A stretch of DNA of 64,000 nt from Lachnospiraceae bacterium OF09-6 (GTDB taxonomy: Bacteria > Bacillota > Clostridia > Lachnospirales > Lachnospiraceae). Below are positions 12,347 through 33,148 of this stretch, in pieces; the first letter of the stretch is position 1, and every line of letters begins with the position of its first letter. The position numbers were made by a program, and so were the translations under genes. The notes under the pieces are model-generated. The model ran no database searches, had not been told where the DNA came from, and was given only the letters and a program-made list of their open reading frames with translations. The DNA lies in the NCBI GenBank assembly GCA_003435055.1, contig QUMM01000007.1, positions 1 through 64,000 on the forward strand. The letters run 5' to 3'.

Positions 12347-12371
12347 AAAAATAATTAGATATTTGATGTAT

Positions 12372-15568: not shown

Positions 15569-15594
15569 CAGTAAAGCAAAAAGGAGTGTTCATT

Positions 15595-16533
15595 TTGAGC
15601 AAAAAACAAATAGCAAAACGTCTTTTGCAGATTGTAATTGTATTGCTGGGAATCAGTTTTATTACATTTGCATTGACGTTCATGTCACCGGGTGATCCTG
15701 TGCGTAACATGTATACGGCAACCGGCGTGATGCCATCAGAAGAGATGATTCAGGAGACAAGAGAGGAAATGGGATTAAACGATCCATTTCTGCAGCAGTA
15801 TACCAGATGGCTTGGAAATTGCCTGAAGGGAGATTTTGGAAAATCCTACAGTCTGAACAGACCGGTAACAGAACTGCTGGCAGAAAGACTCTGGCCGACC
15901 CTGAAACTGACATTGATGTCTATGGTCATGATGTTGATTCTGTCCGTGCCACTGGGAATGTTATCTGCACTCTATAAAGATAAATGGATTGATTATCTTG
16001 TCCGTGGAATTACATTTCTGGGGTGCGCTATGCCAAACTTTTGGGTAGGCTTATTATTGATTCTGGCATTTTGTGTATACATCCATGCATTTCCGGTAAT
16101 CAGTTCAGCAGGAGACTTTAAGAGCTTATTTCTTCCTGCGCTGACACTGGCGATTGCAATGTCATCCAAGTATACCAGACAGGTACGAACAGCAGTATTG
16201 GATGAATTAAGCCAGGATTATGTCATTGGTGCAGAAGCCAGAGGTGTAAAAAGATCTAAAATTATCTGGCAGAATGTTTTTCCGAACTCCTTACTTCCAC
16301 TGATTACCATGTTTGGTCTTTCCATTGGTTCCCTCCTTGGGGGAACCAGTGTAGTAGAAGTCATCTTTTCTTACCCGGGACTGGGAAATCTGGCAGTTTC
16401 AGCAATCACATCCAGTGATTATAATCTGATTCAGGGATATGTATTATGGCTTGCACTGATCTACATGGTAATTAATCTGATTGTAGATGCATCTTATGTG
16501 TACATTGATCCTCGTATGCGTTTAAAGGAGTAG
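15595..16533 (+). CDS. ABC transporter permease, OppB/NikB family
   Basis: First inner-membrane permease of the importer, about 312 residues with six helices. Visible are the N-terminal helix after SKKQIAKRLLQ, FMSPGDPV, GDFGKSYSLNRPV and the cytoplasmic EAA loop region YVIGAEARGVKRSKIIWQNVFPNSLLPLI. The TTG at 15595 is chosen because AAGGAG lies about eight bases upstream; a GTG at 15586 is in frame but overlaps that site. It follows the binding-protein gene by a short gap and precedes the second permease by six bases. Confidence 0.9.
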   Translation: MSKKQIAKRLLQIVIVLLGISFITFALTFMSPGDPVRNMYTATGVMPSEEMIQETREEMGLNDPFLQQYTRWLGNCLKGDFGKSYSLNRPVTELLAERLWPTLKLTLMSMVMMLILSVPLGMLSALYKDKWIDYLVRGITFLGCAMPNFWVGLLLILAFCVYIHAFPVISSAGDFKSLFLPALTLAIAMSSKYTRQVRTAVLDELSQDYVIGAEARGVKRSKIIWQNVFPNSLLPLITMFGLSIGSLLGGTSVVEVIFSYPGLGNLAVSAITSSDYNLIQGYVLWLALIYMVINLIVDASYVYIDPRMRLKE

Positions 16534-16539
16534 AGAACT

Positions 16540-17370
16540 ATGAAGAAAAACAGATTTTTACAGAATAAAACGTTTGTCGTGTTTTCTATTCTTGCACTGC
16601 TTATTATTCTGGCAGCAATATTTGCCCCTGTTGTAACAGGTGGTGTGGATCCGTTGAAAGGATCTCTGGTAGATGCATTGCTTCCGCCGAGTAAAGAGCA
16701 CATTTTTGGAACAGATAAGATGGGGCGCGACATTTTTGCAAGAGTGATTTATGGTGCCCGTGCATCTTTGACAGCCACATTTGGTGTAGTTGCGTTAATT
16801 TTTCTGGTTGGAACAGTAACAGGTGTTATTTCTGGCTATTTTGGAGGAATCGTGGATGCTGTAATCATGCGAATTGCAGACATGATGCTTGCTTTCCCTG
16901 GACTGGTACTTGCCCTTGCGGTTGCCGGTATTATGGGGGCCAGTATCAAAAATGCGATTATTGCAATTGTAGTAGTGAGCTGGACCAAATATGCCCGTCT
17001 GGCACGAAGCCTGGTTTTAAAGATTCGTGACCGCGATTATGTATCTGCTGCAATCGTAACAGGTTCTAAGACTCCGTATATGTTGCTTCGCTATATGCTT
17101 CCGAATGCATTGCCAACTTTGATTATTACAGCAGCGACAGATGTGGGATCTATGATGCTGGAGCTGGCAGCAATGTCCTTTCTGGGATTTGGTGCGAAGC
17201 CTCCTGCACCGGAATGGGGCTATATGCTGAATGAGGGAAGAGCCTGTATGCAGTCAGCACCATGGCTGATGATCTTTCCGGGACTTGCAATTTTTATCGT
17301 CGTTGTTGTATTCAATATGCTTGGAGATTCCATCAGGATATCCTGGATCCAAAGAGTGAATAGGAGGTAG
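16540..17370 (+). CDS. ABC transporter permease, OppC/NikC family
   Basis: Second permease subunit, 276 residues. It has a short cytoplasmic N-terminus, a first helix (VFSILALLIILAAIFAPVV), the FGTDKMGRDIFARVIYGARASL motif typical of OppC/DppC/NikC, and the coupling loop VLKIRDRDYVSAAIVTGSKTP. The C-terminal SFLGFGAKPPAPEWGYMLNEGR is also diagnostic. It pairs with the product of the preceding gene. The ATPase gene starts four bases after its stop. Confidence 0.93.
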   Translation: MKKNRFLQNKTFVVFSILALLIILAAIFAPVVTGGVDPLKGSLVDALLPPSKEHIFGTDKMGRDIFARVIYGARASLTATFGVVALIFLVGTVTGVISGYFGGIVDAVIMRIADMMLAFPGLVLALAVAGIMGASIKNAIIAIVVVSWTKYARLARSLVLKIRDRDYVSAAIVTGSKTPYMLLRYMLPNALPTLIITAATDVGSMMLELAAMSFLGFGAKPPAPEWGYMLNEGRACMQSAPWLMIFPGLAIFIVVVVFNMLGDSIRISWIQRVNRR

Positions 17371-17374
17371 AACG

Positions 17375-18156
17375 ATGCTTGAATTAAAAGATGTGACCAT
17401 CTCCTATAAAAACGTCCCGACGGTTCAGCATTTTAATATGAGTATGAAACAGGGACAGATTATTTCGCTGGTAGGAGAATCCGGAAGCGGAAAAACCACG
17501 GTGATTCGTGCAATTTTGGGATTACTCCCTGGTGGCGGAAAGGTAACAGCAGGACAGATCACATTAGAAGGAGAGGATCTTCTGGCTTATAATTCTGAAA
17601 AATGGAGAAAACTGCGTGGTACAGATATTTCCATGATTTTTCAGGATAGTGGGGCTATGATGAATCCTACGAAAAAGATTGGAAGTGTATTTACAGAATA
17701 CATTCTGACACATGAAAAGATTTCCAAAAAGGAAGCATGGAACAAAGGAATTATGATGCTGGAGCGTATGAGACTTCCGGCAGCAGATAATATTATGAAT
17801 TCCTATCCGTTTCAGTTGTCCGGTGGTATGAGACAGCGTGTTGGAATTGCTATGGGGATGACTTATCAGCTAAACTGTTACTGGCAGATGAACCGACTTC
17901 GGCACTGGATGTGACGACGCAGGCTCAGATCGTGCGTCAGATGATGCAGCTGCGAGATGATTACCATACCAGTATTATCGTAGTAACGCACAATCTTGGT
18001 GTGGCTGCATATATGTCGGATTATATTATTGTTATGAAACAGGGAATAATAGAAGATCAGGGAACAAGAGAGTATATTCTGAAGGAATCCCAAAACGAAT
18101 ATACCAGAAAGCTTCTGGATGCTGTTCCGTCTCTTGGAGGTGAACGTTATGTCTGA
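17375..18156 (+). CDS. ABC transporter ATP-binding protein, OppD/NikD type, frame interrupted
   Basis: Cytoplasmic ATPase of the importer, about 260 residues when repaired. Walker A is GESGSGKTT, the Q-loop lies in DISMIFQDSGAMMNP and the signature is LSGGMRQRVGIAMGM. The frame breaks just before Walker B: one extra C at 17870 turns the sequence into PKLLLADEPTSALDVTTQAQIVRQM. The C-terminal half then reads normally with VVTHNLGVAAYMSDYIIVM. It is somewhat shorter than many OppD proteins and lacks the long C-terminal Cys-containing extension. It overlaps the next ATPase gene by eight bases. Confidence 0.9.
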
Positions 18157-19117
18157 AAAAAGAGAAGTAATATTGGAAGCAAAGCATATAACCAGAAAAT
18201 TTCCGGCTTCCCATGGGAGAACACTGCTGGCAAATAATGATATCAATCTGAAAATGTATAAAGGTGAAACACTTGGTCTGGTAGGAGAATCCGGATGTGG
18301 AAAAAGTACGTTTATGAGATTTCTGGTTTCTTTAGATAAGCCGTCGGAAGGAGAAATTCTTTATCGCGGTACAGATATTACAAAGTTACATGGAGAGGAA
18401 CTTCGTCAGAGCCGCCAGAATATACAGATGGTATTTCAGGATCCTACGTTATCATTTAATCCAAAGATGATCATCCGGGATATTGTATGTGAACCATTGA
18501 TGAACTTTAAGAGAATCAAAAAATCTGAAAAAGATGCAGTGTGCAGAAAGCTTCTGGAAATGGTAGAACTTCCGGGAGATTTTGCAGATCGATATCCACA
18601 TAATATGAGCGGCGGACAAAGACAGCGTGTTGCCATTGCAAGAGCGCTGGCTCTGGAACCTGAAATTGTGGTGTTGGATGAAGCAACGTCTGCACTGGAT
18701 GTATCTGTTCAGAAAACGGTCATTGAACTGATTACCAAACTTCAGAGAGAAAAAAATATTACGTTTGGATTTATTTGCCATGACATTGCATTGGTTCAGC
18801 AGGTTTCCCATCAGATCGCAGTGATGTATCTGGGAAATCTGGTAGAAACACTTCCGAGTGCAGAATTGTCTTCCAAAGCCATGCATCCCTATACAAAAGC
18901 ATTAATGGGAGCTGTATTTGATATTCATATGGATTTTTCAAAACCAATTGAAAGCATCGAAAGTGAGGCGCCAAGTCCGCTGGATTTGCCGAAAGGATGT
19001 CCATTCCAGGGAAGATGTGAACAATGCATGGATATCTGCAAAAAGGAACCGCCTCAGATGACAGAAGTAGAGCCGGGACACCAGGTGGCCTGCCATCTCT
19101 ATGGCGGAAAGAAGTAA
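18149..19117 (+). CDS. ABC transporter ATP-binding protein, OppF/NikE type
   Basis: Second ATPase of the importer, 322 residues. Walker A GESGCGKST, Q-loop NIQMVFQDPTLSFNPK, signature MSGGQRQRVAIARAL, Walker B IVVLDEATSALDVSVQ and H-loop FICHDIALV are all intact. The C-terminal oligopeptide/dipeptide extension is present, with the Cys-rich CPFQGRCEQCMDIC that in some members holds an iron-sulfur cluster. GGAGG upstream sets the ATG at 18149. Its stop overlaps the start of the MATE gene (TAATG), so importer and exporter are co-translated. Confidence 0.93.
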   Translation: MSEKREVILEAKHITRKFPASHGRTLLANNDINLKMYKGETLGLVGESGCGKSTFMRFLVSLDKPSEGEILYRGTDITKLHGEELRQSRQNIQMVFQDPTLSFNPKMIIRDIVCEPLMNFKRIKKSEKDAVCRKLLEMVELPGDFADRYPHNMSGGQRQRVAIARALALEPEIVVLDEATSALDVSVQKTVIELITKLQREKNITFGFICHDIALVQQVSHQIAVMYLGNLVETLPSAELSSKAMHPYTKALMGAVFDIHMDFSKPIESIESEAPSPLDLPKGCPFQGRCEQCMDICKKEPPQMTEVEPGHQVACHLYGGKK

Positions 19118-20436
19118 TGAAGAATACGAATTTAACCGAAGGAAGTATTGCAAAAGGGTTTATCTTATTCGCATTGCCACTGTTTTTGGGCAGTCTGTTC
19201 CAGCAATTATACGGCACCGTTGATTTGATTTTTGTGGGAAATTATATGGGAAAAACAGAGGCTGCAGCAGTGGGCGCAAGTGGAATTCTTGTAACTTGCC
19301 TGATTGGTCTCTTTACCGGTATATCTGTCGGTGCAGGTGTAATAACAGCTCAGTATTGGGGCGCAAAGAATAGAGAAAATGTGCGAAAAAGCATGGAAAA
19401 TGCGTTATTTCTTGCATTAGCCGGAGGAATTCTTCTAATGGCAGCAGGTCAGCTGCTGGCGTATTGGGCACTTCGAGCTTTGAATACGCCGGCATCCATA
19501 CTGGCGCAGGCTCTTGTATACATCCGGATTTATCTGTTGGCAATTATGTCTATGATTGTTTACAATATGTGCGCCGGAATTTTAAGGGCCATGGGAGATT
19601 CCAGAACACCGTTTCTGGTATTGGCTGCCGGTGGCTTTTTAAATGTGTGTATGGACTGGTGCTTTATCGCAATGCTTGGCTGGGGTGTGGCAGGTGCAGC
19701 TCTGGCAACTGTCGTATCACAGACTTTTACGGCAGTATTTTTAATGGTATACATTTTCCGAAAAGAAAACTTACTGAGACAGAGATGGAAGATAGAAAGA
19801 AAAATGAGCGGAAAGATTATAAAAATCGGAATTCCGCTGGGAATACAGGCGATGATTCTTACATTGTCTAATCTGGTAGTGCAGTACTATATCAATGGAT
19901 TTGGAGAGGACGCAGTAGCAGCATTTACGGTCTACTTCCGTGTGGAAACCATACTGTATCTTCCGATTGTTGCCTTTGGACAGAGTATTGTAACCTTCGT
20001 CGGACAGAACTACGGAGCTGGAAAATATGAGAGAATCAAGAAAAGTGCGATGGTATGTAATGTAATTTCTGCATCTGTCATAATGATACTTTCAGCTGTC
20101 ATTCTGATGTTTGGAAGAACGGTTTTGGGTATTTTCTGTCGGGATGAAAATGTAATCCGTCTGGGATTGCAAATCATAGGTGTATCTTTCCCGTTTTATT
20201 TCATCTATTCGATCATGGAAGTAACAGGTGGTCTGGTAAGAGGCCTTGGAAAAACAATTCAGTCCATGATAATTGTAGTTGTGACACTTTGTATTTGCAG
20301 AATTGGAATCTTGAAATTATTTGTAGATCAGTTCCATAGTCTGCGGATGGTGGCAGCAGTATATCCTATCACCTGGTGTCTGGCTATGCTCGCATTTATT
20401 ATTTGTTTTGTGGACGTAAGCAAGAAAATGTTATAG
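19117..20436 (+). CDS. MATE family efflux transporter
   Basis: A 439-residue, twelve-helix multidrug/toxic-compound extrusion protein (NorM/DinF-like), which exports organic cations or other small molecules using an ion gradient. Family pattern: FALPLFLGSLFQQLYGTVDLIFVGNYMG at the start (read as adjacent segments), AAVGASGILVTCLIGLFTGISVGAGV and RAMGDSRTPFLVLAAGG. It shares a start/stop overlap with the importer ATPase, so it is part of the riboswitch-controlled unit. This suggests that something taken up or modified by the operon is also exported, for example an emptied carrier molecule. That role is inferred, and MATE specificity cannot be read from sequence. Confidence 0.9.
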   Translation: MKNTNLTEGSIAKGFILFALPLFLGSLFQQLYGTVDLIFVGNYMGKTEAAAVGASGILVTCLIGLFTGISVGAGVITAQYWGAKNRENVRKSMENALFLALAGGILLMAAGQLLAYWALRALNTPASILAQALVYIRIYLLAIMSMIVYNMCAGILRAMGDSRTPFLVLAAGGFLNVCMDWCFIAMLGWGVAGAALATVVSQTFTAVFLMVYIFRKENLLRQRWKIERKMSGKIIKIGIPLGIQAMILTLSNLVVQYYINGFGEDAVAAFTVYFRVETILYLPIVAFGQSIVTFVGQNYGAGKYERIKKSAMVCNVISASVIMILSAVILMFGRTVLGIFCRDENVIRLGLQIIGVSFPFYFIYSIMEVTGGLVRGLGKTIQSMIIVVVTLCICRIGILKLFVDQFHSLRMVAAVYPITWCLAMLAFIICFVDVSKKML

Positions 20437-20465
20437 CAACAGTAAGAAAAAGTAAGGAGAGACTT

Positions 20466-21521
20466 ATGGAACAAGTTACAATTGGCGGACTTACTGCAAA
20501 AAGAGGAGAAAAAGTCAACGGATTCATATCGGTAGAAGGAACTCGCATACAGCTTCCGGTGACACTGATCTGCGGAACACAGGACGGCGAAACGGTATTG
20601 ATTTCAGGTGGTGTGCACAATGCAGAATATGTGGGAATTCAGTCTGCGATTCAATTATCTCATGACCTGGAACCAGACAAGATCAAAGGACAGGTGATCA
20701 TCATTCACCTGATGAATCCAAGTGGGTTTGAGCACCGCACCATGAGCCTTGTATATGAAGATGGCAAGAACCTGAACCGGGTATTTCCGGGAAGTATGCT
20801 TGGCACAACAGCGGAGCGTATCGCCTATACAGTAGAACGGGAATTTTTTCCATTAGCGGATTATTATATTGATCTGCATTGCGGAGACGGATTTGAAGGT
20901 CTGGTTTCCTATGTATATTGTCTGGGGAATGCCAGTGAATATGTGGTAAAAAAGAGCCGTGAGATGGCAGAGATTGCCCATGTGGATCTTCTGGTGGAAT
21001 CCCAGTGCAATACAAGCGGTGCGTATAATTATGCAGGATCATTGGGAATTCCAAGTATTTTACTGGAACGTGGATACAGCAGTCAGTGGTGTCAGAGTCT
21101 TGTGGATGAAGATGTGCATGATGTGAAAAACATACTGCGCTATCTTGGAGTATTTAAGGGACAGGCACATCGTCATGAAAAGACACCGATTGATGTCAGT
21201 CCTGCCATTTACGAAGATGCTCCGGTAGAAGGATGCTGGTATCCGACAAAGCAGCCGGGAGAAACTTTCCGGGAAGGTGATGTGCTGGGATATATCAAAG
21301 ACTATTTCGGCAATGAATTATTCCGATGCATTGCAAGACAGGACGGCATTATTCTTTACGAAACTATCAGCCTCTGCATTATGAAAGACAGTCCGATGGT
21401 GGCCTATGGAATCTGGGACTTTACGAAACATGGGGAAATAGTGAAGAACTGCATTGTCTGCGGAGAAGCAGAACATAAGAGACATCATCATCATAAAAAA
21501 TCAGAGATTGACGAAGATTAA
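20466..21521 (+). CDS. Succinylglutamate desuccinylase/aspartoacylase (M14) family protein
   Basis: A 351-residue zinc hydrolase of the AstE/AspA branch of M14, which cleaves N-acyl amino acids or related amides. Zinc-site wording is intact: ISGGVHNAEYVGIQSA supplies H and E (about residues 40-43), and YYIDLHCGDGFEG supplies the second His (about residue 142). The C-terminal beta domain follows (GCWYPTKQPGETFREGDVLG). The protein ends in a His-rich tail (KRHHHHKKSEIDED). It is the last gene of the operon, 29 bases after the MATE gene and closed by a strong terminator. It may deacylate an imported ligand; that is inference. Confidence 0.82.
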   Translation: MEQVTIGGLTAKRGEKVNGFISVEGTRIQLPVTLICGTQDGETVLISGGVHNAEYVGIQSAIQLSHDLEPDKIKGQVIIIHLMNPSGFEHRTMSLVYEDGKNLNRVFPGSMLGTTAERIAYTVEREFFPLADYYIDLHCGDGFEGLVSYVYCLGNASEYVVKKSREMAEIAHVDLLVESQCNTSGAYNYAGSLGIPSILLERGYSSQWCQSLVDEDVHDVKNILRYLGVFKGQAHRHEKTPIDVSPAIYEDAPVEGCWYPTKQPGETFREGDVLGYIKDYFGNELFRCIARQDGIILYETISLCIMKDSPMVAYGIWDFTKHGEIVKNCIVCGEAEHKRHHHHKKSEIDED

Positions 21522-21646: not shown

Positions 21647-22637
21647 CTATGCTTCTATAGACTGCGAAAGTTTTTTCGCAGATTGGTATTTTTTTCGATA
21701 CTGATAAGGAGTAATCGAAAAGTTACGTTTGAACAATTTGATAAAATAGGTCAGATCGTGATAGCCAACCAACTCTGCAATATTCTGAACAGAAAGGTCA
21801 CTTTGTTCCAGAAGACTTCGAGTATGCTGAAGCCGGATTTCCTGAATGACTGTGGTAACGGTAGTACCGTTTTCGTGAAATAGTTTGCAGAGATAAGACT
21901 GACTGATATGGAAATATTCTGCAATTTCTCTGGCGGAGGTCAGAGAATAGTTATCACAGATATAAGAATAGATCTGATCATAACGCACCAGCGGAGTGGG
22001 TTGGAAGGTGAGACAGAGATCTGGCTGAGTAACTGCCGTTCCATAAGTGTAAAAAACATACCGGAAGAATAATAAAGCATATTTTGATGAAAAATCTGTT
22101 TATGATGGAATTCTTCGTACATTTCAGCCAGCAGGGCATCCAGTCTGTCAGAGTAGGAGACTGAAAAATAAAGATAATTCCAGTAATGTGTATGATACAG
22201 TATATTGGAACAAAAAAGAAGAAGGGTATTATTCGCTGAGATAAGATCGGAATAATGGCTTCTCAGAGAATCCAGTTTGAAAAAAATATGCAGGATCTGG
22301 CAGTCTTGATCAGGAGAAAAAGAATGAATTACCTGATGAGGGATCATACAAAAGGAATGCCTGGATAAAAAGACAGATTCCGGTGAGACAGTCAGATCTG
22401 TTTTATAAAATTTACAGGTGCAGTTCCCTTTAACAACAAACAGAACATCCACAAAATCCTGCTTACACAGACGATTTTTAAAATCAGGATCCTGCAAAAT
22501 ACTGCGATTTCCTCATTGCAGCGAAAAACGTCAGATTCTGTGATACAGCGAACAGAATTCTGGCTGCAGTTTTTGGAAATATCAGGAAAAAGCGCAGCAT
22601 CAGATGCAGTTAAGATAGATTGTAATGTCTGTTTCAT
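21647..22637 (-). CDS. AraC family transcriptional regulator, frame interrupted twice
   Basis: About 330 residues when two single bases are restored. The middle part (VLFVVKGNCTCKFYKTDLTVSP and following) looks like an AraC-type cupin sensor. The C-terminal part has two helix-turn-helix motifs: TSAREIAEYFHISQSYLCKLF and SVQNIAELVGYHDLTYFIKLF, ending SITPYQYRKKYQ. The frame breaks at the A-run 22496-22499 and near the GGGTT at 21998-22002; adding one base at each gives a continuous protein. It is divergent from the third riboswitch operon, so that operon is its likely target. AraC regulators that sense siderophore complexes (YbtA-like) are a known precedent. Confidence 0.82.
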
Positions 22638-22721
22638 AGCAAGCCTCCATTATGATGTACTGACAGTCATTATAACAGATGATGCAGGGAAGATACAGAC
22701 CAGAAACTAAAAAAACTGAAT

Positions 22722-22885
22722 AGTCGGAAAGGTGTACAAAGTACTTAATAAGGAATTTGGTGAAATGCCAAAACAGCCACCGCTACTGTGACAGGGACGA
22801 AAACCAAAAAATCACTGGAGAAATCCGGGAAGATGGTTAGTAGGAAGAACTGGAGTCAGGAGACTTGCCTTTCGTACAGAAAGAT
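22722..22885 (+). ncRNA. Cobalamin riboswitch 3
   Basis: A diverged but recognisable cobalamin riboswitch: AAGGAATTTGGTGAAATGCC, then AAAACAGCCACCGCTACTGTG, and downstream GGAGTCAGGAGACTTGCCT. The core deviates from consensus (CAGCCACCGCTACTG, where riboswitch 2 has CGGTCCCGCCACTG). A strong terminator follows at 22948. The region 22638-22721 between it and the AraC gene should hold the divergent promoters; only weak -10-like sequences are visible. Confidence 0.88.
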
Positions 22886-22947
22886 TCTGATTCGGATGGG
22901 ATACAGAAGACATAAACTCTGCCAGAGATGGCGAGATATTATTTATG

Positions 22948-22980
22948 CTGATATGATACCGAATCATATCAGTTTTTTTA
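22948..22980 (+). terminator. Riboswitch-linked terminator
   Basis: CTGATATGAT (22948-22957), loop ACCGA, ATCATATCAG (22963-22972), then seven Ts. It is the off-state terminator of riboswitch 3, 37 bases before the first permease gene. Confidence 0.93.
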
Positions 22981-23016
22981 TGTAAAATCCACAAATGAAA
23001 AAGAGGAGAAATGAAG

Positions 23017-23946
23017 ATGGGAAAGGTAATTGCAAAACGTTTTATATTTATGATTCCGGTAGTTCTGGCGGTTACATTTATTATTTTTATATTGAGTTTT
23101 ATATCGGCAGGTGATGCGGCCAGAGTACTGGCGGAGCAAAAATATGAACATCCGTCTCCGGAGCAAGTAGAAGAAGTGCGGCATGCGGAAGGATTGGATC
23201 AGTCGGTGTTGGTGCAGTATGGAAAATGGCTGAATCAGGCATTGCATGGTGATTTTGGAAAATCATATTCCACCAGAAAACCGGCTTTTGAGGAATTAAA
23301 AAGATATTTTCCACAGACGTTTAAACTGGCGGTTACGTCGTTTTTATTGCTGCTGATTGTATCGATTCCCCTTGGAATTCTGTCGGCAATGTATGAAAAC
23401 AGATTTCTGGATAAAGTCGTTCGTATTTTATCGTCACTCAGTGTATCAATGCCATCCTTCTGGATTGGCCTGATGCTGCTTTATATATTTGGAGTAAAGT
23501 TAAAAGTCATCTCTGTAATCGGAGGAAATGCCGGAGGCATCCCGATTCTTGCGGCATTTGCCATGGACATCAGTTCTTTTGGAATTATGACAAGACTGAT
23601 CCGGACAAATATGATACAGGTACTGAAGCAGGATTACATACGTGCCAGCAGAGCAAAGGGCTTGTCCTCTGTCAATGTGATTTTGCGTCACGGGTTGAAA
23701 AATATTCTGATTCCTGTGATGACACGTCTGGTATCGATGGTAATCGGGTTTTTTTGCGGATCTGCTGTGATAGAAAGCATTTTTTCCATTCAGGGAATCG
23801 GAAATCTTGCATTGAAATCCGTGACCACAAAAGATACTCCGGTGTTGCAATGTTTTATCTTTATTCTGGCAGTGGGTATTGTGGTACTGAATTTCCTTGT
23901 GGATATCGCCTATTCTGCGATTGACCGGCGAATTCAGTTAAAGTAA
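23017..23946 (+). CDS. ABC transporter permease, OppB/NikB family (second system)
   Basis: About 309 residues with six predicted helices, paralogous to the permease at 15595. Landmarks are GKVIAKRFIFMIP, FISAGDAAR, GDFGKSYSTRKP, SVSMPSFWIGLMLLYIFGVKL and the coupling loop DYIRASRAKGLSSVNVILRHGLKN. An in-frame ATG at 23011 is only two bases from AGGAG; the ATG at 23017 has normal spacing and is preferred. In this operon the permeases come first and the binding protein last, the reverse of the first system. Confidence 0.9.
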   Translation: MGKVIAKRFIFMIPVVLAVTFIIFILSFISAGDAARVLAEQKYEHPSPEQVEEVRHAEGLDQSVLVQYGKWLNQALHGDFGKSYSTRKPAFEELKRYFPQTFKLAVTSFLLLLIVSIPLGILSAMYENRFLDKVVRILSSLSVSMPSFWIGLMLLYIFGVKLKVISVIGGNAGGIPILAAFAMDISSFGIMTRLIRTNMIQVLKQDYIRASRAKGLSSVNVILRHGLKNILIPVMTRLVSMVIGFFCGSAVIESIFSIQGIGNLALKSVTTKDTPVLQCFIFILAVGIVVLNFLVDIAYSAIDRRIQLK

Positions 23947-23961
23947 AGGAGAAGGCATAGA

Positions 23962-24825
23962 ATGGGAAGCAGAAGAGCGCAAAAAACAGAAAAAAGCATG
24001 ATACAAAATCTGTATTGGAAACAGGTATTCCAGTCATCAAAAACAAAAATAGGATTCATCGTAGTAATCATTTTTGCAGTGGCAGCTATTTTGGCACCTG
24101 TGCTGGCACCGCATGATCCACTGTTGGTGGATGTTGCGATAAAACTAAAAGGTCCGTCTGCGGCATATCCTTTAGGTACGGATCAGCTGGGACGATGTAT
24201 TTTATCAAGACTTCTCTGGGGCAGCCGCTATTCACTGAGTTACAGCTTCACAGTACTTATGATTACGATATGTGTTGGTGTGCCGATCGGGCTGTTTGCC
24301 GGATATGTAGGTGGAAAAATTGATTCTGTGATTATGAGAATCATTGATGTATTTATGGCTATGCCGGTTTTTATAGTGGCACTTGCCATAGCAGGAACTA
24401 TGGGAGCCAGCGGCGTACATCTGATCCTGTCCTTATCGGTTGTATCCTGGGCAGAATATGCCAGACTTGCCCGTGCATTGACGCTTCAGGAAAAAAATAA
24501 AAATTATATGACTGCATTAAAAGCCGGCGGCTGTGGTCATGCCAGAATTATATTCAGACATATATTAAGAAATATCCTGCCGTCTGTGATTGCCCTGGCA
24601 ACCATGGAAATCGGTTCGATTATTCTGTCTATCGCCGGCTTTTCCTTTATCGGTCTGGGTGTGCAGGCACCGACACCGGAGTGGGGGATCATGCTCAGTG
24701 ACAGTAAAAGTTATATCCAGACTTATCCAAGTCTGATGTTTTATCCGGGCATACTGATTATGATCATTGTGCTGGCATTTAATTATCTGGGGGAGGGAAT
24801 ACAGAATGGAACAGCCGAAAAATGA
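23962..24825 (+). CDS. ABC transporter permease, OppC/NikC family (second system)
   Basis: 287 residues. It has a cytoplasmic N-terminus, a first helix (IGFIVVIIFAVAAILAPVLA), LGTDQLGRCILSRLLWGSRYSL, the EAA-like loop KNYMTALKAGGCGHARIIF and the terminal SFIGLGVQAPTPEWGIMLSDSK. AAGGAG precedes the ATG. It forms the channel with the preceding permease. The ATPase gene begins inside its 3' end (overlap of 20 bases), so expression is coupled. Confidence 0.92.
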   Translation: MGSRRAQKTEKSMIQNLYWKQVFQSSKTKIGFIVVIIFAVAAILAPVLAPHDPLLVDVAIKLKGPSAAYPLGTDQLGRCILSRLLWGSRYSLSYSFTVLMITICVGVPIGLFAGYVGGKIDSVIMRIIDVFMAMPVFIVALAIAGTMGASGVHLILSLSVVSWAEYARLARALTLQEKNKNYMTALKAGGCGHARIIFRHILRNILPSVIALATMEIGSIILSIAGFSFIGLGVQAPTPEWGIMLSDSKSYIQTYPSLMFYPGILIMIIVLAFNYLGEGIQNGTAEK

Positions 24826-25596
24826 TGTCCTGAAGGTAAAAGGATTGCATGTGGAGTTTCAGACCTCTCACGGAATGGTGCATGCAGTAAAAGATGTCAG
24901 TCTGGAAGTAAAAAGGGGAAGGATTCATGCATTGGTAGGAGAAAGCGGAAGTGGAAAGTCGGTTACGTCTCTGACCATTATGAATCTGCTTGCAGGAAAT
25001 GGAAGGGTGATATCCGGAGATGTGACACTGAACGAAAAGAGTCTTCTGAAGTTGCCGGGAAAAGAAAAGCGACAGTTATACGGAGACAAAATCGGAATGA
25101 TTTTCCAGGATCCGACGGCAGCGCTTGATCCTCTTTTTACAGTGGAACAATTGCTTCTGGAAGGTTTAAGAAAACATCACAGAATGAGCAAGAAACAGGC
25201 AAGAGAAATTGCCTGGAGAATCTAAGGATGATGAATCTGCGGGATCCGGAAGAACTGATGAACAAAAAACCATACGAATTGTCAGGAGGCATGTGTCAGA
25301 GGGTTATGATCGCTATTGTCATGTCCATGAAACCGGATTACCTGATTGCAGATGAGCCGACGACGGCATTAGATGTAACTGTGCAGAAGCAGATTCTGGA
25401 AGAAATCTATCAGTTATCCAGAAAAGAAAATCTGGGTGTGTTATTTATTACCCATGATCTGGGTGTGGTGGCAGAAATCGCAGATGATGTTTCGATTATG
25501 AAAGACGGTGAAATTGTGGAAAACGGAACAGTCGAAAATATTTTTTATCATCCACAGCATCCATATACAAAAAAACTGCTGGATGCTGTTTTATAG
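24806..25596 (+). CDS. ABC transporter ATP-binding protein, OppD/NikD type (second system), frame interrupted
   Basis: About 263 residues when repaired. Walker A GESGSGKSVT, Q-loop KIGMIFQDPTAALDP, signature LSGGMCQRVMIAIVM, Walker B LIADEPTTALDVTVQ and H-loop FITHDLGVVAEIADD are all present across the two frames. The break is after KQAREIA: one more C at 25212-25213 gives LENLRMMNLRDPEEL. GGGAGG lies upstream of the ATG at 24806. It lacks the long C-terminal extension seen in its partner. Confidence 0.9.
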
Positions 25597-25605
25597 GGGA
25601 AAAGT

Positions 25606-26544
25606 ATGAGTACGTTACTAAAGACAGAACATTTAAAAAAATATTATGGCAAGAAAAAAATTGTGAAAGCAGTGGACGATGTAAGTCTGGGAATCCATGC
25701 CGGATCATCCATGGCTCTGATCGGTGAAAGTGGAAGTGGAAAAACGACATTTGGAAAACTGATTGCCGGTCTGGAAAAGCCGACAGATGGAAAATTTTGG
25801 TTCCAGGGACAGGAAATGCAGGATTTTTCCGAAAAACAGTTCCGTCCATATCGCAAGAATCTTCAGATGATTTTTCAAAGCAGCAGCGGTGTATTTGATC
25901 CTGGATACACGATCGGGGAAAACATTCTGGAAATCCTGAAATTACATGAAAAACTGGAAGCAGATGAGTATGAAGATCGGGTAAAGGAAGCATTGATTCA
26001 GACGGGGCTGGATCCTGATATTCGCAACCGTTATGTCAGACAGATTTCAGGCGGACAGTGTCAGAGAGCTAATATTGCAAGAGCATTGGTATTAAAACCG
26101 AAACTTGTGATCTGTGACGAACCGGTATCCAGTCTGGATTATTCGATACGAAAGCAGATACTGCATCTGTTAAATGAACTGCAGGAAAAATATGAGATGA
26201 CCTATTTACTGATCACTCACGATTTGTCCAATGTTCCATATCTCTGCAAAGAGGTGGCAATTATGTATCAGGGACGAGTGGTTGAATTTATTGATCATAC
26301 GGACAGATTAAAAGAGACAGCAATACATCCGTATACAGTAGATCTGTTTGATTCCATTCCTGTGAAAGAACCGAGAATGCGAAGAATCGGATTACAGGAA
26401 AAGAAGATGTTTTCCGATACCATTCCGGAACAGGGCTGTCCATATCAGAGCAGGTGCAGTAAATGTACAAAGATATGCAAAGAGCAGATACCGGAACTGA
26501 CAGAAATTGAGAAAGGACATTTTGCGGCATGTCACATGCTGTAA
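25606..26544 (+). CDS. ABC transporter ATP-binding protein, OppF/NikE type (second system)
   Basis: 312 residues. Walker A GESGSGKTT, Q-loop NLQMIFQSSSGVFDPG, signature ISGGQCQRANIARAL, Walker B LVICDEPVSSLDYSIR and H-loop LITHDLSNVPYL are intact. The C-terminal oligopeptide-transporter extension carries CPYQSRCSKCTKIC and CHML, a four-plus cysteine cluster similar to the first system's OppF. It begins nine bases after the preceding ATPase. Q-loop and Walker B wording differ from consensus (QSSSG, CDEPVSSLD) without losing key residues. Confidence 0.92.
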   Translation: MSTLLKTEHLKKYYGKKKIVKAVDDVSLGIHAGSSMALIGESGSGKTTFGKLIAGLEKPTDGKFWFQGQEMQDFSEKQFRPYRKNLQMIFQSSSGVFDPGYTIGENILEILKLHEKLEADEYEDRVKEALIQTGLDPDIRNRYVRQISGGQCQRANIARALVLKPKLVICDEPVSSLDYSIRKQILHLLNELQEKYEMTYLLITHDLSNVPYLCKEVAIMYQGRVVEFIDHTDRLKETAIHPYTVDLFDSIPVKEPRMRRIGLQEKKMFSDTIPEQGCPYQSRCSKCTKICKEQIPELTEIEKGHFAACHML

Positions 26545-26576
26545 AAATAGAAAACAAACATAAAGGAGAGGAAGAA

Positions 26577-28144
26577 ATGAAGAAACGAAACGTAGTAAAA
26601 CTGGTATCATTGGGCGTGCTGGCAGCAGCTTTGATGGCAGGCAGCAGTGTACAGGCAGAAGGAGAGAAAGTGGTTACAGCAATGACGTCCCTTGGTCTTA
26701 CTCCTGAACTTTGTGACCCTGTAAAGAGCGGCGGGGACTTCCGTCTTTATGAAATGATCTATGATCACTGGTACGCTATGGAGAAAACGGGGAAATTGAA
26801 CCTGCACTTGCAGAATCCTGGGAGATCAGTGAAGATGGCACAACCTATACATTCCATTTAAGAAAAGATGCAAAATTCTCAGACGGCACAGAGTTTAATG
26901 CAGATAATGTGATCTGGAATTACAATAGATGGGTAGAACAGGATGTAACCGGCAACTTTTCAACAAAACTGGAAAGTGTTACAAAAGTAGATGATGATAC
27001 TGTGGAATTTAAGTTTGCAGAACCTTGCTATACACTGCTGATTGAATTTACTTATCCAAGACCATTCCGTTTCACCTGTGAAAGTGCACTGGATGAAGAC
27101 GGAGAATTTTATCAGGAAGTGGGTACCGGAATGTGGATGATCGACAGCTATGAGAGTGGTCAGGAGGTCGTTCTGGTACCAAATCCAAATTATTATGGTG
27201 AAAAACCAAAGATTGATAAAGTTGTTCTGAAACAGGTGACTGACGGAGATGCCAGAGTGATGGCACTTCAGAGTGGAGAGGCAGATCTGAACCTCCAGGA
27301 TATCCCATCTGAAAGTTACAGTATTATTCAGGCAGATGAGAACTTATCTACAGAACAGCAGATTTCTACTTTGTCATTTTATTTAATCGAGAATTATGAT
27401 ACACCGGCGCTCCAGGATATAAACGTACGTCAGGCACTGAATTATGCAACAAATAATGAAAGTATTGTAAATGACCTGTTAGATGGTTATGGCAATCCGG
27501 CAACTGGTCTGCTGTCTCCGACCGTTCCTTATGTGACAGAAGAAAACAGTAAAGGTTATCCATATGATGCAGATAAAGCAAAAGAATTGTTAAAAGAAGC
27601 GGGATATGAAGATACAGACGGAGACGGTATTGTAGAAAAAGATGGAGAACCGCTGACGCTCAGACTGGTATTCCAGACAGAAGAATACGCTTCCTGGAAA
27701 TCCCTGTGTGAATTCCTAAAATCAGAATATGAAAAGATCGGCGTGGGAATTGAACTGGTAGAAGAAGAATCCGCAGCTTACTATGATGCTATCTGGACCA
27801 CAAGAGATTACGATTTATGTATCTACCGCAGCTATGAAGATTCCTGGATGCCTCATGGTTTCCTGAAAGGTATGTTCTATGCACCGGATGGAGCAAAGGC
27901 AGTAAACTGGTATGACGAAGAACTGAACAATGATCTCGGAGAAGTATTAAAAACGCAGGATGAAGAAGAACGTACTGCATTATACGATAAGATTCTGACA
28001 CGTATCAATGATCAGGCAGTCACGATACCGCTGTATTATCCAAACCGTGATTATATCTATAACAATACCAGACTGACGAATGTGGAACTTGCACCGACTG
28101 CCTATGAAGGTGTTAACTGGGCAGCGATGGATGTAGTGGAGTAA
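26577..28144 (+). CDS. ABC substrate-binding protein, Opp/Nik (SBP_bac_5) family (second system), frame interrupted
   Basis: About 522 residues when repaired. The signal peptide ends AGSSVQAEG, with no lipobox. The first frame covers the start ([21 protein letters not shown] in the N-terminal lobe). After a G-run (26789-26792) that needs one more G, the protein continues [21 protein letters not shown]. Later landmarks are [56 protein letters not shown] and [25 protein letters not shown] precedes the ATG. This is the receptor of the second importer. The ligand is unknown. Confidence 0.88.
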
Positions 28145-28147
28145 ACT

Positions 28148-28900
28148 ATGTTTGAGGAAATAGAAAATAAATGGACAGAAGCGTCCGATGATTATGATGA
28201 TATCATTCAAAGACAATTGAGCAGCAAAAGAACGGTATCTTACTGGACAAAAGAGCTGAAAAGACTTCTTGGACCTGAGCCCCTTCGTATTTTAGAAGTG
28301 GGCTGTGGACCGGGGTTTATGAGTATTATAGCGGCGCGCCTGGGCCATGAGGTGAGGGCAGTCGATGGCTCAGCAGGAATGGTGGAAAAAGCCAGAAGAA
28401 ATATGCAGCATTATCATCAGGCGGTGGAAATCTGTCAGGAAGATGGCGTCACTCTGCCATTGGAACAGAAAAAAAGCTATGATGTGATACTTTCCAGAGA
28501 TGCGGTATGGACGCTGTATGACCCGGAAAAAGCTTTCAGGCGCTGGAAAGATGTATTGAAACCGGGCGGAAAGATTATTTATTTTGATGGAGATTATCGC
28601 ACCACAGAACCCACATTAAAAAATAATATCCGTATGAAAATTGCTGATTTTCTTATTTATGTTACAGAAAGAAAAACATATGAATCTGATGAAAAAGAAA
28701 GCAGCGGAATCTATGAAAAATTGCCATTTACATCGCAGAAGCGCCCGGAAGCGGATTTTCAGATATTGAAAAAGGTACGCTTTGCAAGAATCCGGATCAG
28801 AGAGAACCGATGGCTGAACAGCCCATGGACAATGGATTTCTGGAAATACGGATACCAGGGAAAAAAATTTATTGTAGTAGCCACAAAGAAGGAGGAGTGA
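28148..28900 (+). CDS. Class I SAM-dependent methyltransferase (first of tandem pair)
   Basis: 250 residues, Rossmann-fold methyltransferase. Motif I is ILEVGCGPGFMSIIAARLG (about residues 42-60), the acidic residue after it is in RAVDGSAGMVEKARRNM, and motif IV/V reads YDVILSRDAVWTLYDPEKAFRRW then LKPGGKIIYFDGD. It starts three bases after the binding-protein stop, so it belongs to the riboswitch operon. Both this protein and the next share the unusual post-core phrase W-T-L-x-D-P and are probably duplicates. The substrate is unknown; methylation of an imported or exported ligand is the natural guess. Confidence 0.87.
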   Translation: MFEEIENKWTEASDDYDDIIQRQLSSKRTVSYWTKELKRLLGPEPLRILEVGCGPGFMSIIAARLGHEVRAVDGSAGMVEKARRNMQHYHQAVEICQEDGVTLPLEQKKSYDVILSRDAVWTLYDPEKAFRRWKDVLKPGGKIIYFDGDYRTTEPTLKNNIRMKIADFLIYVTERKTYESDEKESSGIYEKLPFTSQKRPEADFQILKKVRFARIRIRENRWLNSPWTMDFWKYGYQGKKFIVVATKKEE

Positions 28901-28901
28901 C

Positions 28902-29648
28902 ATGCAAAACGATAAGATCAAAGAGTACTGGGAAGGGGAAGCCGGTATTTACAGTGAAGGAATCAAAGCAGAATTACAGAGTGAAACGGCAGAAAACTGG
29001 AAGAATCTGATTCTGGAACATGCGCCGGAAAAAGAACATCTGGAAATACTGGATGTGGGATGCGGACCGGGATTTTTTGAAGTGACACTGGGAAAAGAAG
29101 GACATCACGTGACAGGAATCGATATTACGGAAAATATGATTCATGAAGCCAGGGAAAATGTAAAGGCAGCCGGTTTATCTGCGGATCTGATGACCATGGA
29201 CTGCCACAATCTGCAATTCCCGGATGAGACATTTGATATGGTGATTTGCAGAAATATTACATGGACGCTGGATGACCCGCAGAAAGCTTACAGAGAGTGG
29301 CTGCGTGTACTGAAAAAAGGTGGACGTCTCCTGGTATCGGATGCCTGCTGGTATCTGCATCTTTATGATGAAGAAAAGAAAAAACTTTATGAGGCACACG
29401 ATGCTGCCATGTGGAAAAAATATGGAAGAGGCATTCATGCTCACGAAGATGTGGAAACAGGGAAAGAACTTAGCAGAAAGCTGTTTATGAGTGACAAAAA
29501 GCGTCCTGCATGGGATCTGGATTATATGATGGAAATCGGATTTTCCAAAGTGTTCGCACTGCCGGATATCAGTGAAATTTCCAGAGCAGCCATGGAACGA
29601 GAGCTGAACAAACTGACACCTCAGTTTTTGGTAGGCGGAGAAAAGTAA
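28902..29648 (+). CDS. Class I SAM-dependent methyltransferase (second of tandem pair)
   Basis: 248 residues. Motif I is ILDVGCGPGFFEVTLGKEG, followed by VTGIDITENMIHEARENV, DMVICRNITWTLDDPQKAYREW and LKKGGRLLVSDACWYLHL. GGAGG at the end of the preceding gene provides the SD; the two stop/start sites are one base apart. The C-terminal region (KKRPAWDLDYMMEIGFSKVFALPDISE) is longer in loops than in simple UbiE-like enzymes and may form a substrate lid. It is paralogous to the preceding protein. No known metallophore synthase (nicotianamine-synthase-like CntL or NRPS) is present. Confidence 0.87.
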   Translation: MQNDKIKEYWEGEAGIYSEGIKAELQSETAENWKNLILEHAPEKEHLEILDVGCGPGFFEVTLGKEGHHVTGIDITENMIHEARENVKAAGLSADLMTMDCHNLQFPDETFDMVICRNITWTLDDPQKAYREWLRVLKKGGRLLVSDACWYLHLYDEEKKKLYEAHDAAMWKKYGRGIHAHEDVETGKELSRKLFMSDKKRPAWDLDYMMEIGFSKVFALPDISEISRAAMERELNKLTPQFLVGGEK

Positions 29649-29649
29649 G

Positions 29650-31376
29650 ATGAACCAGTTTTTTCGATTAGTATATTTTCTGAAATATGCAAAAAAAGAA
29701 ACCGCAATCCGGATTTTACTGGGACTGGGCATAGTGGGTGCCCAGTTTTCCCAGACCTGGTTTCTTGCAAAAATGGTTATAGCAGTATGCGAGAAAAGAA
29801 ATATGAAAGAAATTCTACTGTACTTTCTGGCAGAATTTCTTTCTCTTTTTATCAGAGCAGGATTGATAAAGTATCAGGAGTATTTTCTGAAAAAATATGC
29901 GGCGAAAGTGAAGAATGAGATCCGCAGTCAGATTCTGGATAAGATTATGATTCTTGGACCATCCTTTAAGAATGACCAGAGAACCGGCAATCTTCAGTCA
30001 TTGATTACCGATGGCGTGGAATCACTGGAAGCCTTTTTGACTCAGTATATACCACAGATTGCGGTGGTTGTTTGTACCACAATATTTGTTACCACTTTTA
30101 TGTGCCGACTGGATCGGACGGTAGGGCTTCTGATTCTTTTTATGTCGGCGGTGACGGTCATAGTACCGCATATATTTATGCCGGCAGTATCAGATGTCAT
30201 GGTACTGTACTGGAAAGAATATGCACAGTTAAATGCACAGTACATCGATGATATGCAGGGATGAGTACCTTGAAATCGTTGGGAGTCAGCAAGAAAGAGG
30301 GAAAAAGGCTGAAAACCCAGGCCATTGGATTTGCGGCAGAATCCATGAGAAATCTGGGAATATCACTTTCAGATTCTACGTTAATTACGATCTGCATTAC
30401 GGCAGGAACCAGTATCAGCATCCTGTTGTCTGCCATTCATGTGGCACAGGGAAAGATTCCTTATGCAGTACTGATACAGGTGCTGTTTCTGGCAGGTGAA
30501 TGTCTGCGGCCGATGAATGATTTAAGTATTTACTGGCATAACAGTTATACAGGATTATCCGTTGCTGAGGAATTAATGTATGTTCTGGACTATCCGGTTT
30601 CGGAAAAGCCAAAAGAGAATTTGCAGAATACAGGAATTGGCAAGAAGCCGGAGATTGTATTGCAAAATCTGTCATTTCAGTATGAAAAGGATGGGGCAGA
30701 TGTCTTAAAAAATGTGGATATGGTGTTTGAGTCTGGTAAGGTTACTGCAATTGCAGGAAAGTCAGGATCCGGAAAATCCACAATTGTAAATTTACTGCTG
30801 GGATTTTATGAAACAGAAAAAAACAGAATTCAGATCGATGGGAAAACGTTGGAAAGCTTCGAACCGGATTATCTGAGAAGCCAGATTTCGGTAGTATTTC
30901 AGGATAGTTTTCTGTTTTATGGTACGGTAAAGGATAATATTCGGATGGCCAGACCAGAGGCAACGGACGCAGAGATCATGCAGGCGGCCATGGCGGCGAA
31001 TGCCCATGAATTTATTGTAAACCTTCCAAATGGGTATGATACATTGGTGGGAGAACGTGGAGCTACTCTTTCCGGAGGAGAAAGACAAAGGATTGCCATT
31101 GCCAGAGCGATATTAAAGAATGCGCCAATTCTGATTCTGGACGAGGCAACTTCCAGTGTGGATTGCAAAAATGAACAGGAAATACAGAATGCGCTGAAAG
31201 AAGCAATGAAGGATCGCACAACTTTGGTGATTGCACATCGTATGACGACAATTGAAGATGCAGATAAGATCTACGTTATGCAAAATGGACACGTAGAGGG
31301 ATGTGGAACGCATGAGGAATTACTGCAGAAAGATCAAATTTATCAGAATCTGGTGAGGGCACAAAGTTATGAATAA
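29650..31376 (+). CDS. ABC transporter, exporter-type fused membrane/ATPase subunit A, frame interrupted
   Basis: About 575 residues when repaired. The N-terminal six-helix ABC-exporter domain (AIRILLGLGIVGAQFSQTWFLA onward) is followed by an ATPase domain with AIAGKSGSGKSTIVNLLLG, VVFQDSFLFYGTVKDNI, LSGGERQRIAIARAIL, ILILDEATSSVDCKNEQ and VIAHRMTTIEDAD. The frame breaks at AQYIDDMQG; one more G at 30258-30260 restores GMSTLKSLGVSKKEGKRL. It overlaps the next subunit gene by eight bases, giving a heterodimer like YbtP/YbtQ or CydDC. YbtPQ-type pairs import metal-siderophore complexes despite an exporter fold, so direction is open. Confidence 0.88.
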
Positions 31377-33126
31377 AGAAGAACAGAAATTTGCAAGACT
31401 GAAAAATGTCATACGGCTCTCGAAGAGGCTGAAAAAATATCGTTTGCGTATGGTAGCTGCAGTTGCGGCTGGTGTGGGAAATCAGTTATCGATTGTGGCG
31501 GCATCTGTGCTTGGGGCATGGACGGTGGGATTGGCAATTGATAGAAAATTGATGCAGGAACTGAATTATGTAATCGCGGCTACGATAGCAGCAATTATTA
31601 TTCGGATTGTGTTTTATGCATTGGAAATGTGGATTTGTCACGATGTGGCATTTAAGGTACTTGCTGATTTTCGAATACAGCTGTTCGATTCCATTGAAAG
31701 AGTATCACCGGCAATTTTGCTGAATATGCGTTCCGGGCAGCTGGCATCTACATTAATGGGTGATGTGGAGATTATGGAATGGTTTTTTGCACATACCTTC
31801 GGAAGTGTTTTAGTGGCAATCATTACACCGCTTATTTTAATGATTATTTTATGGCAGATACTTCCGATTCTGGATCTGGTGATGCTTCTTTTTGCGGTGG
31901 TAGCAGTGCTTATACCAATATGGATGAAAAAGAAAGCAGATGAGCAGGGCCGGGAAGTCCGGGAAGCTCTTGCAGATGCCAATGCGGTAACATTGGAAGG
32001 CGTGCAGGGGTTAAAAGAAATATTGACTCTGAATTATCGAACAGGGTACGAGGAAAAGAACAGAACATACCTGGAACGTATGTATAAAAAGCAGTTTTCA
32101 TACAGTAAACGGCTGGGTACAGAAGGAATGCTGCTTCAAATGGTGCTTGGAGTATCCGGACTTGTGGCGGCGTTGATAGCGGCATGGTATGTAGGAAAAG
32201 ACGGAATGGCAGCTTCTATGTATACAATTATTGTAGTGTTGTCTGCAATGATTCTGGGACCAGTCATTGAAATCTGCAATACGGCGAGAAATTTTGGGTT
32301 GATTTTTGCAGCAGCAGACCGGATTTACCGGGTGCTGGAGGCAAAGCCTCTGGTAGAGGATACAGGAAAAGATGTAGAAGTAGAGAAACTGACACCGGAG
32401 ATTTGTTTTGAACATGTAAGTTTCCGATACAGAGAGGATCTGGATCCGGTAGTGGAAGATATTTCGTTTCAGATTCAACCGGGGGAACATGTAGCCATTG
32501 CAGGTGCTTCCGGCGCAGGAAAAACAACTTGTATTCAGCTGCTGCTTCGAAATTGGGATCCTGAAAAGGGATGTATTCGTATTGGGGGAAAAGATATACG
32601 AGACATATCTTTAAGGAGCTTGAATGAAATGTATGCCACAGTATTACAGGATGTGTATTTATTCCAGATACCGATATTGGAAAATATTCGTCTCGGAAGA
32701 AGCAGTGCAACGGATGAAGAAGTCATAGAGGCAGCAAAGAAAGCCTTCGCCCATGAATTCATTACAGAACTCCCGGATGGTTATCAGACGATTGCAGGAG
32801 AAGGTGGAGTGAAACTATCCGGTGGTCAGAGACAGAGGATCGCGATAGCGCGGGCGTTTCTAAAGGGTTCTCCAATTCTGGTCTTTGATGAGGCAGTATC
32901 GAATCTTGACACGGAAAATGAAAGAAAGATTCAGGAATCCATAGAGCAAAGTGCCCAAAACTGTACGGTCGTGATGATTGCACACAGATTATCTACGATT
33001 AAGTCCGCAGATCGGATTATCTGTATGGATCATGGAAAAGTGGCTGAGATGGGAACGTTTGAAGAATTAATGAAGAAAAACGGATATTTAAAAAAGTTAC
33101 TGGAAAATAGTGAAGACATGAAATAA
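31369..33126 (+). CDS. ABC transporter, exporter-type fused membrane/ATPase subunit B
   Basis: 585 residues. The six-helix membrane domain (VVAAAVAAGVGNQLSIVAAS-like start, EWFFAHTFGSVLVAIITPLI) precedes an ATPase with AIAGASGAGKTTCIQLLLR, TVLQDVYLFQIPILENI, LSGGQRQRIAIARAFL, ILVFDEAVSNLDTENERK and MIAHRLSTIKSADRI. Walker B ends DEAVS and the signature is intact, so both sites of the heterodimer look catalytic. It is the last gene of the riboswitch 3 operon. It ends ten bases before the stop of a convergent Rrf2 gene, with a shared hairpin in between. Confidence 0.92.
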   Translation: MNKEEQKFARLKNVIRLSKRLKKYRLRMVAAVAAGVGNQLSIVAASVLGAWTVGLAIDRKLMQELNYVIAATIAAIIIRIVFYALEMWICHDVAFKVLADFRIQLFDSIERVSPAILLNMRSGQLASTLMGDVEIMEWFFAHTFGSVLVAIITPLILMIILWQILPILDLVMLLFAVVAVLIPIWMKKKADEQGREVREALADANAVTLEGVQGLKEILTLNYRTGYEEKNRTYLERMYKKQFSYSKRLGTEGMLLQMVLGVSGLVAALIAAWYVGKDGMAASMYTIIVVLSAMILGPVIEICNTARNFGLIFAAADRIYRVLEAKPLVEDTGKDVEVEKLTPEICFEHVSFRYREDLDPVVEDISFQIQPGEHVAIAGASGAGKTTCIQLLLRNWDPEKGCIRIGGKDIRDISLRSLNEMYATVLQDVYLFQIPILENIRLGRSSATDEEVIEAAKKAFAHEFITELPDGYQTIAGEGGVKLSGGQRQRIAIARAFLKGSPILVFDEAVSNLDTENERKIQESIEQSAQNCTVVMIAHRLSTIKSADRIICMDHGKVAEMGTFEELMKKNGYLKKLLENSEDMK

Positions 33127-33127: not shown

Positions 33128-33148
33128 GGGGAACCTTAATAGTTCCCC
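33128..33148. terminator. Hairpin between convergent genes
   Basis: GGGGAAC (33128-33134) pairs with GTTCCCC (33142-33148). It overlaps the last codons of the Rrf2 gene. No long T-run follows on either strand, so it is at best a weak terminator. Confidence 0.45.

Follow-up and report, generated by a model that had tools for sequence, protein, structure and literature searches.

A cobalamin riboswitch-led operon in a relative of Blautia joins a Nik-type importer to a conserved pair of methyltransferases

The staphylopine system Cnt (CntKLM, CntE and CntABCDF) sets an importer of the Nik/Opp family next to enzymes that use S-adenosylmethionine (SAM) and an exporter, and the siderophore importer YbtPQ is a pair of ATP-binding cassette (ABC) half-transporters with an exporter fold. 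Here we describe an operon that resembles each of these systems in part. It lies in a stretch of 64,000 nucleotides (the window; positions 1 to 64,000 of contig QUMM01000007.1, assembly GCA_003435055.1) from Lachnospiraceae bacterium OF09-6, a relative of gut Blautia, and encodes, behind a cobalamin (B12) riboswitch, a Nik-type importer, two tandem methyltransferases and a pair of exporter-type ABC half-transporters. Like NikABCDE, the importer has two permeases, two ATPases and a NikA-like binding protein. The riboswitch control also has a counterpart: passages of Zhang et al. (2009; PMC2667541) report riboswitch control of NikABCDE in Clostridium tetani and Desulfitobacterium hafniense and treat the riboswitch-led systems of two clostridia as exceptions to nickel specificity, and they mention neither methyltransferases nor an ABC pair beside them. 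The B12-controlled Nik importer core is already known; what appears to be new is that it goes together with methyltransferases that are conserved as a set in both bacteria and archaea, and our literature searches returned no paper that, by its title or the start of its abstract, describes such an enzyme-equipped cobalt uptake cassette.

Judged from sequence, we hold with moderate confidence that the operon encodes a B12-repressed importer of cobalt chelates together with ligand-modifying enzymes, probably serving a cycle built around a home-made chelator. The observed part of this proposal comprises a riboswitch with its hairpin, the gene content, and the conservation of importer and methyltransferases together. 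The riboswitch aptamer (RS3; 22713..22886, + strand) matches Rfam RF00174 at 108.3 bits (E 3.5e-26). Between it and the first permease gene lies a terminator-like hairpin with a T run (22947..22973, + strand; 11-pair stem, T tail), the presumed expression platform. The same stem occupies that place in the related loci L001, L002 and L003 (related loci and their genomes are numbered L and G throughout), and RS3 is therefore likely to be a termination-type switch. An aptamer plus expression platform ahead of the operon is the arrangement of a B12-riboswitch-controlled cobalt importer. The first-pass annotation of this DNA had likewise placed a cobalamin riboswitch at the head of the unit, which it began at 22638; the unit is indeed riboswitch-led, but the RNA element begins at 22713.

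The genes that follow, all on the + strand, are separated by tiny gaps or overlap. Permease B (permB, 23011..23946) scores 297 bits with the Opp2B nickel permease model (cut-off 350) and stays below every nickel-permease cut-off listed; permease C (permC, 23962..24825) passes only that of Opp2C (302.6 bits, cut-off 300) and reaches 332 bits with the NikC model (cut-off 358). The first importer ATPase (24767..25596) is split over two frames (24767-25225 and 25228-25596), and the second (25606..26544) carries ABC_tran and oligo_HPY domains. The NikA-like substrate-binding protein (26529..28144; model TIGR02294) is likewise in two frames (26529-26861 and 26909-28144). Next come two class I SAM methyltransferases with Methyltransf_11 domains, MT1 (28148..28900; family alignment A1, structure model pLDDT 87.7) and its paralogue MT2 (28902..29648; family alignment A2, pLDDT 94.1), which share 26% identity over 215 aa (E 5e-27). 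The operon closes with two exporter-type half-transporters, ABC1 (29650..31376, in frames 29650-30264 and 30261-31376) and ABC2 (31369..33126), each with ABC_membrane and ABC_tran domains and intact ATPase motifs. The gene order and near-gapless spacing described at first pass are thus as reported, except that the first ATPase, the binding protein and ABC1 are frame-split.

Conservation was examined from both ends of the cassette. Species genomes were searched with the MT1 family; out of 376 candidates the locus scan retained the best 80, and 78 loci entered the analysis. With this cap, and with just the leading candidates of each genome scored in the genome tallies, the counts are lower bounds. 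The first 24 (L001-L024, 36-90% identity; the MT1 loci) belong to Blautia massiliensis, Faecalicatena faecalis, other Lachnospiraceae or Clostridia, Acetitomaculum, Methanosarcina, Treponema, Propionicicella, and Paenibacillus or Bacillus. They are not independent, ten being Paenibacillus-like and these including three P. tyrfis strains. Nik permeases are present in 22 of the 24, a NikA-like binding protein (>300 bits) in 20, and MT2 in 20, two of the four misses (L006 and L013) being contigs of 5.1 and 4.3 kb; no permease is in view in L021. Against a background of 171 NikB-type matches in 20 genomes (~90 Mb summed), the permeases cluster with the methyltransferases: over 98 loci (L001-L078 and L136-L155) there are 14.3 of them per 100 kb at distances of up to 5 kb from a methyltransferase gene and 1.3 at 5-10 kb (10.7x), in a comparison where pieces of one gene may count twice. 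Pieces of the ABC pair number 41 near and 5 far in the same loci (5.3x in density). MT1 itself is rare (4/398 phylum genomes at E <= 1e-50), the wider methyltransferase family occurs in 57/397 genomes of the bacterial family at E <= 1e-20, and viral contigs searched with A2 gave only seven weak partial matches. The Propionicicella locus, L012, has MT1 without a Nik importer, and its upstream frame resembles, by eye, a FecB-type binding protein; two Thermoplasmata/Methanomassiliicoccaceae contigs (L028, L030) carry two methyltransferase relatives and exporter-type ABC genes, with no Nik importer in view.

Searching instead with a binding-protein profile (A4), which was built mostly from MT1 loci and is hence biased towards them, recovered 9/398 phylum genomes and 4/397 family genomes at E <= 1e-110, with G001 in both sets and thus 12 genomes. 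Their scores form two groups, eight at 695 bits or above and four at 371-389 bits. Seven of the eight (G001, G002 and G008, with loci L001, L002 and L008; G436; G442; G635; and G531, with L186) have a methyltransferase of the same family beside the binding protein; the eighth, G522, is a 7.5 kb contig with none. Among the four lower-scoring genomes none has a methyltransferase neighbour, and one (L190) has an AstE-type gene. Because importer and methyltransferases are found together from either side of the search, the link between them is strengthened. In L190 a Nik-type importer ends in that AstE gene, with no methyltransferase and no riboswitch motif found. L186 reads, in order, a riboswitch motif, two unlabelled genes, the binding protein, the importer and one methyltransferase relative, after which come another riboswitch motif and, behind it, a BtuC/BtuD-like pair. 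Both riboswitches there, the one ahead of the importer and methyltransferase row and the second, are known from the motif scan only. Importer and methyltransferases therefore constitute a conserved cassette, as the earlier idea of a metal-chelate importer with ligand-modifying enzymes under B12 control would have it. That annotation also took the ABC pair to belong to the unit proper and expected it, with the methyltransferases, in conserved neighbourhoods; the methyltransferases do stay with the importer, but loci without the pair are the rule, and the pair is an accessory.

The frame splits (at 25225/25228 in the first ATPase, 26861/26909 in the binding protein and 30264/30261 in ABC1) recur in the divergent AraC-type regulator gene on the - strand (21647..22637), which is spread over three frames with its HTH_18 domain in 21647-21988; a divergent AraC gene had been reported, and it is there, in pieces. 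Window genes named by eye as citrate synthase, a phosphotransferase system (PTS) component and trpD are split as well, and all six of the + strand breaks tested shift in one direction. Uninterrupted copies exist for the ATPase (a single frame) and binding protein in L001-L003 and for ABC1 and the AraC gene in L002, where the one-frame AraC-type relative is also divergent. Since genes that look by eye like housekeeping genes are broken in the same direction, the breaks look like sequencing or assembly indels, and we rejected gene decay as their cause.

The longer piece of the binding protein scores 246.6 bits with the NikA model TIGR02294, and intact copies reach 359 (L001), 352 (L009) and 363 bits (L015) for a cut-off of 393; the cassette lies under the NikA, NikB and NikC equivalog cut-offs. 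NikA chains are nevertheless the best solved relatives (342 and 339 bits), followed by 9pl3, a chain named as peptide-binding, and by 4wed (302 bits) and chains of CntA (5yhe, 286 bits). The position of NikA Arg137, its carboxylate contact, is invariant in 14/14 rows of A4, read off the printed alignment. Scores with the CntA model (245.7, 243.9 and 281.1 bits) fall short of its cut-off of 800. A further difference from Cnt concerns synthesis: in agreement with the earlier statement that no known synthase is present, neither the CntL/nicotianamine-synthase-type family PF03059 nor the opine-dehydrogenase family PF10100 matched in any of the eight nearest genomes (G001-G008), while among all 20 genomes PF03059 matched in 5 and PF10100 in 3 at E <= 0.001.

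The ABC pair had been called YbtPQ-like, a description that the scores do not favour. It is a pair of exporter-type half-transporters as YbtPQ is, but it is no closer to YbtP/YbtQ than to exporters: ABC2 scores 238 bits with YbtQ and 256 with Sav1866, and ABC1 scores 284 with Sav1866, with no Ybt-named chain among the best 60 of its 258 matches, the 60 reaching down to 232 bits. The SAM motif is retained in both methyltransferases. The corrinoid-protein-associated methyltransferase CpaM (NF043040) is the best NCBIfam match of MT1 and the second-best of MT2, but at 61.2 and 70.0 bits both lie under its cut-off of 180.

A second operon in the window, which the first-pass annotation left out, bears on the same question. 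It extends from 12353 to 21521 behind a second cobalamin riboswitch (RS2; 12353..12535, + strand; RF00174, 125 bits) and contains another Nik-type importer (14010..19117, + strand), made of permeases, a second ATPase, and a binding protein, placed by family comparison, and a first ATPase that each occupy two frames. Its last gene (20376..21521, + strand) encodes an AstE/DoeB-type amidohydrolase (PF24827, 91.8 bits) that retains HxxE and a later His, the zinc-site motifs, as DoeB and AstE enzymes do; it differs from them in scoring far below the cut-off of DoeB, its nearest named family (TIGR02994, 78.2 bits, cut-off 402.7), and in that its relatives are fused to methyltransferases. Many matches of the wider methyltransferase family indeed sit in long open frames. 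In 20 loci fetched partly for such frames, 15 frames are fusions (five MT-AstE-MT, seven AstE-MT and three MT-MT), and their AstE part is homologous to the window gene. The MT-AstE-MT frames of L136-L140 are 820-856 aa long, with a Nik-type permease in view in 5/5 and a LysR-like gene in some. Over the 98 loci AstE counts 14 near methyltransferases and 0 far, 12 of the 14 loci coming from the 20 fetched partly for fused frames. In eight of these 20, a search for other riboswitch classes ahead of the fusions found none, with a single tRNA. At eight riboswitch-Nik places picked regardless of methyltransferases (L156, L157, L158, two in L159, L160, L161 and L162), AstE or a methyltransferase relative occurs at three: in Blautia massiliensis (L156) AstE directly precedes a further Nik operon led by a riboswitch, a second Blautia genome (L158) has it as the last gene of such an operon, and in Acetitomaculum (L162) a riboswitch is followed by a single row of genes in which a weak methyltransferase relative (60 bits) has a BtuFCD-like set on one side and a Nik-type importer on the other.

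Under the proposed cobalt-chelate reading, the hairpin would end transcription when cobalamin is bound, and the operon would be read when cobalamin is low. The binding protein would then catch a small carboxylate-bearing metal complex, and the Nik-type importer would take cobalt in as an organic chelate when B12 is short. Least certain are the steps in which a common metabolite would be worked up into a finished, home-made chelator by MT1, MT2 and the AstE-type amidohydrolase of the RS2 operon, and in which the ABC pair, where present, would export this chelator for later re-uptake with cobalt. Going by anatomy alone, such a cycle of making, exporting and retrieving is likely; MT1 and MT2 may make the chelator or may act on one that has been imported. 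A bolder version, to which we give tentative and limited credence, is a complete cobaltophore pathway in which MT1, MT2 and AstE build a methylated chelator without nicotianamine synthase or opine dehydrogenase, the ABC pair exports it and the Nik importer retrieves it under B12 control, with MT-AstE-MT fusions serving other metals in Lachnospiraceae, Paenibacillus and methanogens.

Several observations weigh against the proposed reading. We know of no backbone synthase, which leaves a home-made chelator without its first step, and AstE is unlabelled in all of L001-L024, so that the fusions concern wider relatives. The ABC pair (>200 bits) occurs in 4/24 MT1 loci and lies on the opposite strand in L009 and L011; MATE genes are not enriched near the methyltransferases (near/far ratio 1.3 over the 98 loci). 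The 9pl3 score of 330 bits almost equals those of NikA, and the positions of NikA Arg97 and of its metal ligand His416 are not conserved, other residues being aligned there. The MT1 and MT2 models match amine and natural-product methyltransferases about equally, and fold comparison names no substrate for either, phosphoethanolamine, glycine-sarcosine and natural-product methyltransferases falling within ~3 Z units. No riboswitch was found by motif scan in 18/24 MT1 loci, Paenibacillus and Methanosarcina included; CbiD, which acts in corrin-ring synthesis, was found in only 7/14 of G007-G020; and G003 and G005, two genomes in which neither CbiM nor NicO was found, are metagenome assemblies, so that these absences are weak.

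The motif scan, which recovered 18/20 Rfam-confirmed aptamers and gave 1 match in 7.1 Mb of shuffled sequence, placed a riboswitch ahead of the importer in six of the 24 MT1 loci, L001-L006 only, for which Rfam also gives the places, with MT1 upstream of the riboswitch in L006. Motifs 6-7 kb upstream of methyltransferase pairs in L068, L070 and L071 were rejected, other genes intervening in L068, and searching with a DNA consensus of the B12 box was uninformative (3 matches, 1.1 expected). A nickel-chelate importer under B12 control, as might suit acetogens, which use nickel carbon monoxide dehydrogenase (CODH) and a corrinoid protein together, would explain why the best family models are nickel ones and would fit the loci without riboswitches and the genomes without CbiD. 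It is nonetheless improbable for the operon studied here: all six genomes with a riboswitch before the importer (G001-G006) encode CbiD, and in three of them (G001, G003 and G005) neither of the cobalt importers CbiM and NicO was found. Given the CbiD and riboswitch counts outside it, the metal may differ beyond the riboswitch-bearing lineage. The earlier wording, a cobalt or nickel complex, can thus be narrowed in that lineage alone, where cobalt is favoured.

The remaining alternatives concern the ligand. A foreign cobalt chelate might be taken up, freed of its metal through methylation by MT1 and MT2, and expelled once spent by the ABC pair. The same anatomy would serve, no opine-type synthase was found in G001-G008, and the ABC pair is accessory; we still consider this account unlikely, as two distinct methyltransferases and an amidohydrolase exceed the needs of a release step and known metal-release enzymes are reductases or hydrolases. 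Salvage of cobinamide or another corrinoid fragment, which would be the substrate of the methyltransferases, would account for the cobalamin control, and BtuFCD-like genes do accompany the Nik-type importer in the L162 row and, as a BtuC/BtuD-like pair behind the second riboswitch motif, downstream of it in L186. This reading, raised at first pass, is disfavoured to the point of being remote, because the binding protein is NikA-like, scoring best with NikA, and the first riboswitch of the window already precedes a BtuFCD-type importer, named by eye. It is also very unlikely that the operon scavenges amino acids or peptides when B12-dependent methionine synthase fails, with methyltransferases unrelated to metal. 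Family-5 binding proteins do include many peptide binders, 9pl3 being so named; NikA chains score best, however, the Arg137 position is kept, and methyltransferase relatives repeatedly adjoin Nik-type importers.

In the whole window, three cobalamin riboswitches and one NiCo riboswitch score above the Rfam cut-offs. Riboswitch 1 and its BtuF/BtuC/BtuD-type importer (455-3460; named by eye) lie at 198-3460. Immediately behind RS2, a 398-aa protein with a signal-like start and no Pfam match is encoded at 12700-13896. A MATE gene adjoins AstE in the RS2 operon and another lies upstream of the operon in L001; MATE was rejected as a part of the module on its near/far ratio. An Rrf2-type regulator gene (33136-33597) is convergent with the operon end. 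At 43764-44918 the NiCo riboswitch stands ahead of a cation-efflux gene, so that the cell apparently also has a sensor for too much cobalt or nickel.

The cassette is a concrete candidate for the way in which anaerobes that build the corrin ring but lack CbiM and NicO acquire their cobalt. This applies to one species of the human gut at least, Blautia massiliensis (G001), in which CbiD was found and CbiM and NicO were not. If the methyltransferases do make or remodel a chelator, the cassette would represent metallophore chemistry that escapes homology searches with known synthases, and such chemistry would be common to bacteria and methanogenic archaea.

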